Assembly: GCA_031292095.1 (NCBI GenBank)
Contig: JARLHU010000084.1
Coordinates: forward strand, 1-64,000
Direction: 5' to 3'
Origin: Desulfosporosinus sp.
Lineage (GTDB): Bacteria; Bacillota; Desulfitobacteriia; Desulfitobacteriales; Desulfitobacteriaceae
Length of the DNA: 64,000 bases
The notes below the pieces were generated by a model that was not told the origin of the DNA, searched no databases, and saw only the letters and a list, made by a program, of their open reading frames with translations. A program made the translations under genes and the position numbers. Below are positions 43,234 through 57,717 of this stretch, in pieces. The first letter of the stretch is position 1; the number at the start of each line of letters is the position of its first letter.

Positions 43234-43297
43234 ATAAGGCATATGAAAGAAAATAACAAGTCAAAGATGCCTTGGATATTTTCTTTTATATACCTAA
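43234..43297 (+). repeat. Shortened copy of the 164-bp repeat (family 1, copy C)
   Basis: Begins ATAAGGCATATGAAAGAAAA exactly like copies A and B, then keeps ATGCC-TGGATATTTT and ends with CCTAA, but about 100 central bases are missing. The remaining arms (GAAAGAAAATA and TATTTTCTTTT) still pair as a stem. Confidence 0.65.
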
Positions 43298-52140: not shown

Positions 52141-52178
52141 GTACAAGAAGAGGAAGCTAATGCTTCCTCTTCTTGTAC
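52141..52178. terminator. Perfect 17-bp terminator stem downstream of the selenium genes
   Basis: GTACAAGAAGAGGAAGC pairs perfectly with 52162-52178 around a TAAT loop. It lies 53 bp after the end of the DUF3343 gene on the minus strand. Confidence 0.7.
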
Positions 52179-52230
52179 TAGTCAGAATGTATAACTTTCA
52201 GTTTTCTTTAGACTTCACTCCGCAAGGTAG

Positions 52231-54162: not shown

Positions 54163-54326
54163 ATAAGGCATATGAAAGAAAATAACAGGTCAGTATGCCA
54201 TGGATATTTTGAGTCAGACAAGGAGGTATGTGCCCCTCATAGCGGGGCTATTAGGGGCACATACCGACGCAGTATGGCGCGAAATAGACTGGCATAATGG
54301 CCTGTTATTTCCTTGAATGTGCCTAA
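54163..54326 (+). repeat. Structured 164-bp repeat, family 1, copy A
   Basis: Only five mismatches to copy B at 57554-57717, equal length. Ends form an imperfect inverted repeat (TAAGGCATATGAAAG / rc TTAGGCACATTCAAGG). Stems: AAATAACAGG / CCTGTTATTT, TATGCCA / TGGCATA, and a long central hairpin GGTATGTGCCCC / GGGGCACATACC. It lies between selD and the aminotransferase gene. No coding capacity. Confidence 0.8.
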
Positions 54327-54330
54327 ACAC

Positions 54331-54404
54331 AGAAGTCGGAGGTCAGACGTCGGATGTGTCAGATCGTAGTATTCCATTTCTGATCTCTGTCTTCTGACCT
54401 CTGG
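54331..54404. repeat. Long imperfect inverted repeat before the aminotransferase gene
   Basis: GGAGGTCAGA (54338-54347) and TCTGACCTC (54393-54401) are inverted copies, with CAGATC / GATCTCTG between them. Similar GGTCAGA tracts are common in Firmicute intergenic regions. Confidence 0.5.
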
Positions 54405-54424
54405 AAAAACAGATTGGAGTAAAA

Positions 54425-55531
54425 ATGATTTATTTGGACAACGCCGCTACAACCCTAACAAAACCCGATTGCGTCAAGAAAGCCGTTTTGCGGGCCCTAG
54501 ATACCTTCGGCAACGCTTCACGTGGAGCGCATACACCGGCGCTTGATGCCCTACGGATGTTGATGGAAGCGCGGATAGCCTTGGCCTCGCTCTTTGGGCT
54601 TAGTGATGACCCTATGCGTGTTGTATTCACACCCAATGCTACTGTCGCCTTAAACATCGCCATTGCTGGTATTAATGGACATATTGTCTCAACCGCCGCA
54701 GAGCACAACTCAGTATTGCGACCCATTTACAGGCGCGGGAATTATACCATTGTTCCTTGCGACCGCTTGGGATGTATTTCGATAGATACCATTTCCTCTG
54801 CCATTCGGCCGGATACTGGAGCAGTGGTACTCACGCATGCTTCCAATGTCACAGGCAACGTATTTGATATACAGTCTATCGGTGAATTGTGCGCAGTGCG
54901 TGGCGTGCGCCTCATTGTAGATGCCGCACAAAGCGCTGGGCTTTTGCCTATTGAAATTAAAAACATCTCGGCGCTTTGCTTTACAGGTCATAAATCACTC
55001 TTCGGGCCGCAAGGCACCGGCGGGCTGTGTTTAGGAGCCGATTACATGCCCGAGGCCCTGTATGTAGGAGGAAGCGGCCACCATTCCTTTGACCACAAAC
55101 ATCCCTGGCAATTGCCCGATGCGTTGGAAGCCGGTACGCAAAATGCACATGGGATCGCAGGGCTGTTGGCTGGCGTGCAATATATACAATCTACTGGGCT
55201 ATCGACCATCCACAACCAGGCCGATGTTTTGGCACGCCTGTTCGCACATTCGCTTGCGGATACTCCGGGGGTTACGCTATATGGCGACTTGGATGCGCCC
55301 CTCCGTGCACCCATAATATGTATAAATATCGAAGGGCATGATTCTGCGCAAGTAGCTAGTTTACTTTTTGAGAGGTATGGCATCGCCGTACGCTCGGGGG
55401 CACATTGTGCACCGTTGATGCATGATGCACTCAAAATATCTGGCTCTGTCCGGTTTTCGTTCTCGCATTTTAACACTCGAGAAGAGACGCAATCCGCTGT
55501 TGAAGCCGTTCGCACATTGGCTGGTCGATAG
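54425..55531 (+). CDS. Class V aminotransferase, cysteine desulfurase-like
   Basis: 368 residues, PLP enzyme. The start YLDNAATTLTKPD is typical of cysteine desulfurase family proteins; the PLP lysine is in CFTGHKSLFGPQG, and the C-terminal active-site cysteine is in GIAVRSGAHCAPLMH. It is divergent from selD, with repeat copy A between. Such proteins may deliver sulfane sulfur or selenium to SelD. More GC-rich than its neighbours, like selD and yedF, which suggests the cluster was acquired together. Confidence 0.87.
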   Translation: MIYLDNAATTLTKPDCVKKAVLRALDTFGNASRGAHTPALDALRMLMEARIALASLFGLSDDPMRVVFTPNATVALNIAIAGINGHIVSTAAEHNSVLRPIYRRGNYTIVPCDRLGCISIDTISSAIRPDTGAVVLTHASNVTGNVFDIQSIGELCAVRGVRLIVDAAQSAGLLPIEIKNISALCFTGHKSLFGPQGTGGLCLGADYMPEALYVGGSGHHSFDHKHPWQLPDALEAGTQNAHGIAGLLAGVQYIQSTGLSTIHNQADVLARLFAHSLADTPGVTLYGDLDAPLRAPIICINIEGHDSAQVASLLFERYGIAVRSGAHCAPLMHDALKISGSVRFSFSHFNTREETQSAVEAVRTLAGR

Positions 55532-56286
55532 TAGTAGGCAATTAGTATCTTACCATTTCTCGCATCTTGTTTCAATTATGATATGTCATTATTACACCCT
55601 TATCAGAAATCCATAGCAGATTAGCTAAGTTCTGTAATTTTTGCAAACCGATACCCTTTTTCTTAAAGACTTTCAGGAGCTGGTGAAGGACTGAGTTATC
55701 ATGGGTATAAGAGGGATAACCGTCCAGACCTTTACTCAATCAAGGTTATGCTGTCAAACTCGAGGTATGGGGCTAAGAAAAAACTGTCTAAAATGTTAGG
55801 CTTGAGGTACCTTGAGGTTAAATAGTTTATGAAAATCGAACATACTGAGATAGACAATACCCCCTGAGATGAGGGCTTTTTTCTTGAGATGATATACTTG
55901 GTCATTGGTCCGATAAATGTTTTCTTAAGCCAGAGCGTTCAAATACGCTCCGGCTTAAATACAATCACAAAATAAATATTAATTTATACTAAAGCTCGAT
56001 TGAAGATGATTGCTAATGTTCCCTGAATTCTAAGATTTAGTAATCCTTTAATTTCCTGCAACGCTGAGCTTGAATACCAATAGCTTTTCGAAAAGGTAAA
56101 ACATGGGCATAAATAATTATTCCAATAATATTTTGGATAAAGATAATATTTGCCCTGTTGGGAGGAATTTGAAGGAACCATGTGGAATATTTTTAAGAAC
56201 AGAGTTGGTGGACATGTCTGGAACAGTCAGAGACGATAGATGTAAGTTAATACAAGAGGAATCGGAAGTTAGATGGAGGGTATCAA
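55532..56286. other. 755-bp intergenic region with a transposase remnant
   Basis: Contains the remnant at 55691-55825, a weak hairpin with T-run near 55860 (CCC...GGGCTTTTTTC) and an AAGCC-a-GAGCGT / ACGCTC-c-GGCTT hairpin near 55931-55956. The leader of the next gene (56103-56286) may be partly translated-looking but no gene is supported. Confidence 0.45.
55691..55825 (+). pseudogene. Possible transposase remnant (IS1634/IS4-like)
   Basis: The frame reads LSYHGYKRDNRPDLYSIKVM and continues to a stop at 55823. The GYKRDNRPDL core resembles the G-H/Y-S-K/R-D-H/N-R-P-D-L motif of IS1634-type transposases. No other transposase parts or terminal repeats were found, so this is a weak call. Confidence 0.35.
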
Positions 56287-57576
56287 TTGAAACCAACTCG
56301 TGTACTCGTGTTTTCCGCAACCTTTGGAGCTGGTCATGTAAAGGCTGCAGAAGCTCTTATAGAAACAATTAAAAATACAGAGCCATCAGTAGAAATAATC
56401 CATGAAGATTCAGTTGCCATGCTCAACAGGAATGTTAATGCGTTTCTTTGTGCGTTGTACATCATCTTAATGAAGAGAGCACCCAAAATTTGGGGTGTAT
56501 TTTATAAACAAACGCAAGAAATAGCGGAGGATTCGCTTTTTCAGCGCTTTCTTAATACGTATGGTCGCAGTCAGTTTGTTACTTATCTGAATCTATCGAA
56601 ACCCGATATTATCGTTTGTACCTATCCAACTGTTGCTGGGGTATTGGCACAGTTGAGGGAAAATGGCGAGCTAAATATTCCTGTAGTCGCGGTTGTAACG
56701 GATTACACTGTCCACAGTCAATGGATTCATCGAGGAGTAGATGTTAATATTGTGGGTAGTGCTAAGGTTTACAGGGGATTTATAGCGCGTGGAATAGAAT
56801 CGAGCCGTATTCAGATATCCGGAATTCCAGTAAATCCGCGGTTTGAGCGTAATTTAAATAAAGAAGAGATACTCAGAAGATTAGGTCTCGTTGAAAATCG
56901 GTTGACATTTTTGGTAATGTGTGGCGCTTGCGGTGTATTAGATAAAGCTAAGTGGATATGTAAGCTGATTGCCAATGTTCAGTCGCCAGTTCAGGCCATT
57001 ATTGTCTGCGGTAATGATCAGAAACTGTTCAGTTCTTTAGACAACGTGGTTCAAGAAGCTCATAACCCTATGGTTCGTTTTAACTTTGTCAATAACGTTG
57101 ATGAACTTATGACGGCTGCGGATATCATTATTACAAAGGCAGGTGGCCTTACGGTTTCTGAAGCTCTGACCAAACATATACCTATGATTATTTTCAAACC
57201 ACTTCCCGGTCAAGAGGAAAACAATGCTAGGTTTGTTGAGGAAATTGAAGCTGGACGAATTGCTTTTTCAGATGAACAGTTTGTGGAGATCATGAACGAA
57301 CTTATCAATAATCCCTGTGAAATCAACAAAATGAGTGCGGCCTCAATTCAAGCCTTTCCTGGCCATTCGGCAGAGAAAGCAGTGCAAGTTATATTAGAGT
57401 TGGCTGCCGACTTTTCTCAGGGCACGATAAGTAACGATCAAGTCGTATATACCTCCCTTAGCCAGAGTCGTGCAAGTGTTTGGTTCAGCACATTCTTCCG
57501 TATCTTACGTCCTTTCCTTCCAAAGCTCAAACGTTCCTTACCTTTTTTTTCAGATAAGGCATATGAAAGAAAATAA
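56287..57576 (+). CDS. MGDG-synthase-like (GT28) glycosyltransferase
   Basis: 429 residues from TTG (GGAGGG upstream). N-terminal MGDG-synthase motif FSATFGAGHVKAAEAL and C-terminal GT28 part with TKAGGLTVSEAL and FKPLPGQEENNARF. It likely glycosylates diacylglycerol at the membrane face, like UgtP. The last residues (KAYERK) and the stop are encoded by repeat copy B, which begins at 57554, so the element's insertion shaped the C-terminus. Confidence 0.88.
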   Translation: MKPTRVLVFSATFGAGHVKAAEALIETIKNTEPSVEIIHEDSVAMLNRNVNAFLCALYIILMKRAPKIWGVFYKQTQEIAEDSLFQRFLNTYGRSQFVTYLNLSKPDIIVCTYPTVAGVLAQLRENGELNIPVVAVVTDYTVHSQWIHRGVDVNIVGSAKVYRGFIARGIESSRIQISGIPVNPRFERNLNKEEILRRLGLVENRLTFLVMCGACGVLDKAKWICKLIANVQSPVQAIIVCGNDQKLFSSLDNVVQEAHNPMVRFNFVNNVDELMTAADIIITKAGGLTVSEALTKHIPMIIFKPLPGQEENNARFVEEIEAGRIAFSDEQFVEIMNELINNPCEINKMSAASIQAFPGHSAEKAVQVILELAADFSQGTISNDQVVYTSLSQSRASVWFSTFFRILRPFLPKLKRSLPFFSDKAYERK

Positions 57577-57717
57577 TAGGTCAGTATGCCATGGATATTT
57601 TGAGTCAGACAAGGAGGTATGTTCCCCTCATAGCGGGGCTATTGGGGGAACATACCGACGCAGTATGGCGCGAAATAGACTGGCATAATGGCTTGTTATT
57701 TCCTTGAATGTGCCTAA
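57554..57717 (+). repeat. Structured 164-bp repeat, family 1, copy B
   Basis: Same length as copy A with five differences. In the central hairpin a G-C pair of copy A is a T-A pair here (GGTATGTTCCCC / GGGGAACATACC), and in the outer stem two C-to-T changes keep U-G and G-U pairs in plus-strand RNA. It overlaps the last seven codons of the preceding glycosyltransferase gene. Confidence 0.8.

Follow-up and report, generated by a model that had tools for sequence, protein, structure and literature searches.

Does the fold of a short repeated element serve the bacterium that carries it, or the element itself? Many bacteria are known to have short structured repeats, and for their RNA-like folds this question had stayed open. 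The window studied here, a stretch of 64,000 nucleotides from Desulfosporosinus sp., raises it through two copies, A (54163-54326) and B (57554-57717), which are 97% identical over 164 nt. The original prediction described a 164-bp dispersed element with compensatory changes, and both the alignment of A with B and the plus-strand fold confirm it. The copies differ at copy positions 24, 70, 91, 96 and 140. All five differences retain pairing in the predicted plus-strand fold, through one double change (70/96, G-C to U-A) and three changes to G.U (24/142, C-G to U-G; 75/91, U-A to U-G; 140/26, C-G to U-G). Four of them had been interpreted beforehand and indeed keep their pairs; the fifth (A to G, 54253/57644) had been left out and is also pair-keeping. 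The central hairpin with its paired swap is present, with 13 pairs plus a 5-pair apical stem instead of the 12 bp first given. The features in the window are:

54167..54323, plus strand: copy A, 157-bp full-length element, from sequence comparison with copy B and end patterns
54164..54166, no strand: TAA, left copy of the 3-bp target duplication of copy A, from the TWA pattern across copies
54324..54326, no strand: TAA, right copy of the target duplication of copy A
54213..54223, plus strand: left half of the conserved core of copy A, GTCAGACAAGG, nearly constant across genera
54266..54278, plus strand: right half of the conserved core of copy A, GACGCAGTATGGC, nearly constant across genera
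54225..54265, plus strand: apical hairpin of copy A, arms hypervariable yet paired (17 different 6-nt cores in 96 copies)
57558..57714, plus strand: copy B, 157-bp full-length element
57555..57557, no strand: TAA, left target duplication of copy B
57715..57717, no strand: TAA, right target duplication of copy B
57604..57614, plus strand: left half of the conserved core of copy B, from core constancy across genera
57657..57669, plus strand: right half of the conserved core of copy B, from core constancy across genera
43238..43294, plus strand: third copy in the window, 57-nt short form, outer stem only

More than 100 copies of this hairpin element are present in the genome, whose assembly comprises 4.59 Mb in 248 contigs. 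BLAST returned 77 matches (both strands counted), and searches for the element ends found 109 left and 119 right ends, with none in reversed-pattern controls. Among named relatives, the left-end sequence occurs in Desulfosporosinus and in one copy in Clostridium frigidicarnis. The element is mainly 157-159 bp long, plus the duplicated TWA target, and has short forms of 45-92 nt and long forms of 211-505 nt. In most long forms, a second repeat family has inserted into the element at two fixed sites. The larger size classes were rejected as ancestral forms, since their extra sequence is this second family, which is also found alone. The second family is itself structured (TATAAAGAAAAC...CAGAAAGTATATAACGTTAGTTATACTTTCTGACTAGTAC). 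It stands free in the window at about 52172-52215 (minus strand) and in L073, L194, L197 and L015, and is nested at the two fixed sites in L054, L058, L060, L062, L063, L065, L070, L071, L074, L075, L083 and L090. Such composites are multi-copy themselves.

The flanks indicate how the element inserts. Of 128 elements in Desulfosporosinus, 39 have TTA/TTA, 34 have TAA/TAA and 8 have a mixed pair, and in C. frigidicarnis the same classes number 35, 21 and 2. Left and right flanks thus vary in matched fashion and represent a 3-bp TWA target duplication; two copies in G283 lack a clear one. An empty-site comparison, originally proposed as support for a MITE, gave a consistent picture in the rpe-thiN gap. 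The element is present here, most relatives with a match there lack the insert, and the flanks joined minus one TTA equal the relatives' length, with flanks only about 70-80% identical and the single TWA itself not seen. Two relatives (L168 and L184) have different extra sequence at this junction, and no close relative showed an empty site in which one TWA is left intact. Short, non-coding and multi-copy, with terminal inverted repeats, a constant-length target duplication and empty sites in relatives, this is a MITE-like mobile element. Copies often begin right at the upstream gene's stop codon, or provide that codon themselves. In the window, a glycosyltransferase-like ORF (56287-57576) extends into copy B, where the first 19 bases of the element encode the final residues and the stop codon of this ORF, and several further upstream ORFs likewise end on element-supplied residues and a stop codon. 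Forms of 55-57 nt do not contain the core, but TWA flanks surround them at many sites. They may have arisen by deletion after insertion, or may mean that the core can be dispensed with.

The plus strand can fold into a single long hairpin with interruptions, whose internal-loop core is nearly constant. For copy A, this strand reaches a minimum free energy of -91.6 kcal/mol (z -12.4; shuffled sequences average -42.4), and the minus strand reaches -72.1 kcal/mol. The plus strand is also the more stable one in 96 of 97 Desulfosporosinus copies, 59 of 60 C. frigidicarnis copies and 17 of 18 listed copies. Across 101 full copies, which include the C. frigidicarnis copy, the stem cells hold 5730 Watson-Crick pairs, 306 G.U and 28 A.C. 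When mapped on a tree, 85 changes from Watson-Crick lead to G.U and 27 to A.C (24 and 2 on internal branches only), and unpaired sites have no clear strand bias. In 51 Desulfosporosinus copies and one Clostridium copy, double changes occur at 19 of 63 pairs, compared with 5.7 in shuffles, and the covariation score is 0.117 versus 0.070 shuffled. In the apical stem, 96 copies hold 17 different 6-nt cores. Pairing is free of mismatches in 84 of these copies, whereas 20% of the combinations of arms taken from different variants pair. The covariation search suggested with the original prediction gave a strong signal in more than 100 further copies, far beyond A and B. Neither of the two outcomes named there as refuting it occurred: covariation extends well beyond the first two copies, and the matches are not termini of a known insertion sequence. 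No known RNA family had been recognised either, and in Rfam 15 neither the window, the long form nor the distant copies scored above a family threshold. A known structured RNA family was accordingly rejected.

The element is not confined to one genus. Among 398 sampled Bacillota genomes, five outside Desulfosporosinus carry copies, with relatives in five other genera. In C. frigidicarnis, the model matches 129 times (both strands counted), with about 70 full-length matches, and full and short copies together number about 120. Phage and plasmid records gave no match, and in IMG/VR a single contig (L296) holds one copy, the other pattern matches not fitting the model; a phage or plasmid origin was rejected on these grounds. 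The core, GUCAGACAAGG / AACGCAGUAUGAC, is nearly constant across genera, and a U-rich/A-rich stem also persists. Several copies from other genera have ends unrelated in sequence, for example GGGGCTGTTAAGG...GACAGTCCC between TAA and TAA, or TACTGTTGCCGG...CCGGAAATAGTA, again between TAA and TAA. Almost all of the stem sequence is replaced between genera and pairing persists. In twelve copies from other genomes (alignment A3), double changes occur at 55 of 63 pairs and covariation reaches 0.541, compared with 0.180 shuffled and at most 0.108 slid; these copies were not used in building the model, but their alignment was fitted to its structure. One single copy in another genus (L293:3018-3121) has the core and the apical hairpin and no outer stem, and could be a truncated or free-standing RNA form.

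A terminal-repeat transposase predicts conserved terminal repeats. Here the opposite is seen, a conserved core with replaced terminal repeats, which suggests an unrecognised mobilising system in Bacillota. This bears on the reading of the family as an ordinary MITE, in which a DDE transposase would act on double-stranded terminal inverted repeats and the interior would be kept by hairpin-templated (quasi-palindrome) replication correction, not by selection. Terminal inverted repeats, TWA duplication, short non-coding units and size variants all fit such an element. Moreover, transversions that affect both sides of a pair in concert cluster in five or six neighbouring apical pairs, as templated correction would give. 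Templated correction is strand-neutral, however, and pooled shared changes on the plus strand favour G.U over A.C (46:19, p 0.001). The plus strand also folds better nearly always, and the terminal sequences are not conserved between genera whereas the internal core is. Furthermore, DUF4096 (PF13340, IS1031-type) and DDE_Tnp_4 (PF13359, PIF-type) transposases are absent in 30 genomes of the genus. Taken together, we consider an ordinary MITE rather unlikely, although it is the strongest competitor.

Other sources of mobility were considered. PIF/Harbinger and IS1031-group IS5 elements make a 3-bp target duplication of TWA or TNA. The element resembles them in its TWA-type duplication but, with their DDE_Tnp_4/DUF4096 genes not found in the genus, it was not assigned to the IS1031 group or to PIF-like elements. 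An IS200/IS605-derived element, expected to lack a target duplication, was rejected because a 3-bp duplication is present. The loci searched around family ends revealed no mobilising gene or autonomous copy, unpaired ends adjoin ordinary genes, and the PF01609 loci in this genome have no matching element ends. In another species, pairs of ends spaced 0.5-4 kb apart were candidates for a parent insertion sequence, but proved to be separate elements. A search for TWA-flanked inverted ends 0.6-3.5 kb apart returned only L121, whose interior is without a recognisable transposase. There, two inverted family ends, flanked on each side by TTA, enclose a 1.3-kb segment (L121:4779-6092) that contains a LysM-like 82-aa ORF and a 109-aa ORF. 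The segment may have arisen by rearrangement or may be a unit that carries cargo.

With many copies in two genera, benefit to the host can be told apart from benefit to the element, and the evidence points to propagation. In Desulfosporosinus, the states private to one copy (18 G.U, 15 A.C, 34 other mismatches) fit a neutral spectrum, and those found in more than five copies comprise 8 G.U, no A.C and 4 mismatches, plus 7 compensatory doubles. C. frigidicarnis presents a similar picture, with private states (16 G.U, 23 A.C, 41 mismatches) that again fit a neutral spectrum and shared changes that are mostly pair-preserving. Private and shared changes differ significantly in both (p 0.0005 in Desulfosporosinus, p 0.0002 in C. 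frigidicarnis), the two classes being only a proxy for resident versus source history, as shared changes are older and have been filtered for longer. Because shared changes preserve pairs and private ones look neutral in both genera, we infer that the fold was kept in lineages that spread and was not visibly selected in resident copies. Given the greater age of the shared changes, weak long-term selection on resident copies may also have contributed. On balance, selection during propagation seems to us more likely than a function of resident copies.

The position of the copies relative to genes is relevant to such a resident function. A dispersed cis-acting RNA could work in mRNAs, for example by affecting how transcripts are processed or how stable they are, a role proposed for ERIC and NEMIS. 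In Desulfosporosinus, copies within tandem genes, called by a simple ORF rule, are sense and antisense in a ratio of 61:26, and many lie in sense inside operons. Judging from the flanking ORFs, examples between co-directional operon genes are mreB-mreC, argJ-argB and rpe-thiN, so that the RNA is probably transcribed. Against a resident role, private changes are not biased towards pair-preserving states in either genus, no common gene class is apparent beside the copies, and the orientation is reversed in C. frigidicarnis (9:33). An argument for sense-strand function from orientation was dropped for this last reason, and a resident mRNA function appears unlikely overall.

The reversed orientation could instead reflect transcription termination. 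The T run of the 3' arm on the plus strand is 6-7 long in C. frigidicarnis and mostly 4 in Desulfosporosinus, and the orientation differs between the two hosts as expected if terminator-like U-tracts were avoided. Full-size Desulfosporosinus copies with a T run of at least 6 are never in sense (sense to antisense 0:6, versus 44:19 for the rest, p 0.0015), in a test devised after seeing the data. With all size classes pooled, the effect is lost (5:5 versus 58:22, p 0.16, not significant), and the tract on the minus strand has no effect. It is plausible, although not established, that the orientation bias of each host arises from avoiding termination. A much stronger claim, that the elements are mobile transcription terminators whose fold and orientation both reflect the purging of insertions that terminate host transcripts, is very improbable. 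A simple terminator scan found none inside the element, and purging accounts for host tolerance, not for the conserved core.

Propagation remains the reading that we prefer, with the family as non-autonomous mobile elements whose folded plus strand, as RNA or single-stranded DNA, probably matters for their spread. The original prediction had named two possibilities, selection acting on an RNA structure and a mobile intermediate that is single-stranded and folded; mobility and the conserved fold of one strand support it, and both readings hold in combination. Mechanistically, the folded strand would be needed for propagation or would favour it, and an unlinked trans-acting enzyme would recognise the fold or the core and insert the element at TWA. 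The host would mostly tolerate the element in gaps between genes and at stop codons, with the orientation of copies perhaps partly set by the avoidance of termination. More specifically, and more tentatively, the enzyme might recognise the shape of one folded strand and the internal core, not the terminal sequence, and insert folded units at TWA with a 3-bp duplication. We regard this version as possible but doubtful. If it were true, the ends would be free to drift completely between genera while still pairing.

Integron attC sites are recognised by a strand-specific fold with variable stem sequence, and their insertion makes no 3-bp target duplication. The hairpin element shares their variable stems and has a fold that favours one strand, but differs in its duplication. 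Closer in size are ERIC, NEMIS/Correia, YPAL and RUP, elements of about 100-170 bp with mostly terminal inverted repeats and target duplications, mostly TA termini and long stem-loop transcripts, each listed for a narrow host group; they have size variants through internal sequence, and orientation effects are reported for ERIC (PMC2229807). The hairpin element is like these structured MITEs in size, inverted repeats, target duplication, stem-loop and size variants. Unlike in them, its terminal inverted repeats vary between genera and an internal core persists. In the Bacillus cereus group, bcr1-bcr18 are short intergenic repeats, several of them MITE-like and some with conserved secondary structure, that are often transcribed in UTRs or operons (PMC3446304). 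They too are short intergenic repeats of a Gram-positive host, in part MITE-like and structured, and are compared here by their descriptions: they are described for one species group, and the hairpin element has one core across several distant genera and a TWA duplication. The target duplication of bcr1 is longer. The open-access papers searched contained no published description of the family, which is apparently an undescribed group of short mobile elements scattered through several distantly related Bacillota. C. frigidicarnis also holds a short perfect palindrome, GGCATCTGAAAAAATAATAG...CTATTATTTTTCAGATGCC between TTA and TTA (L114:5376-5433), which looks like another short relative of the hairpin element.
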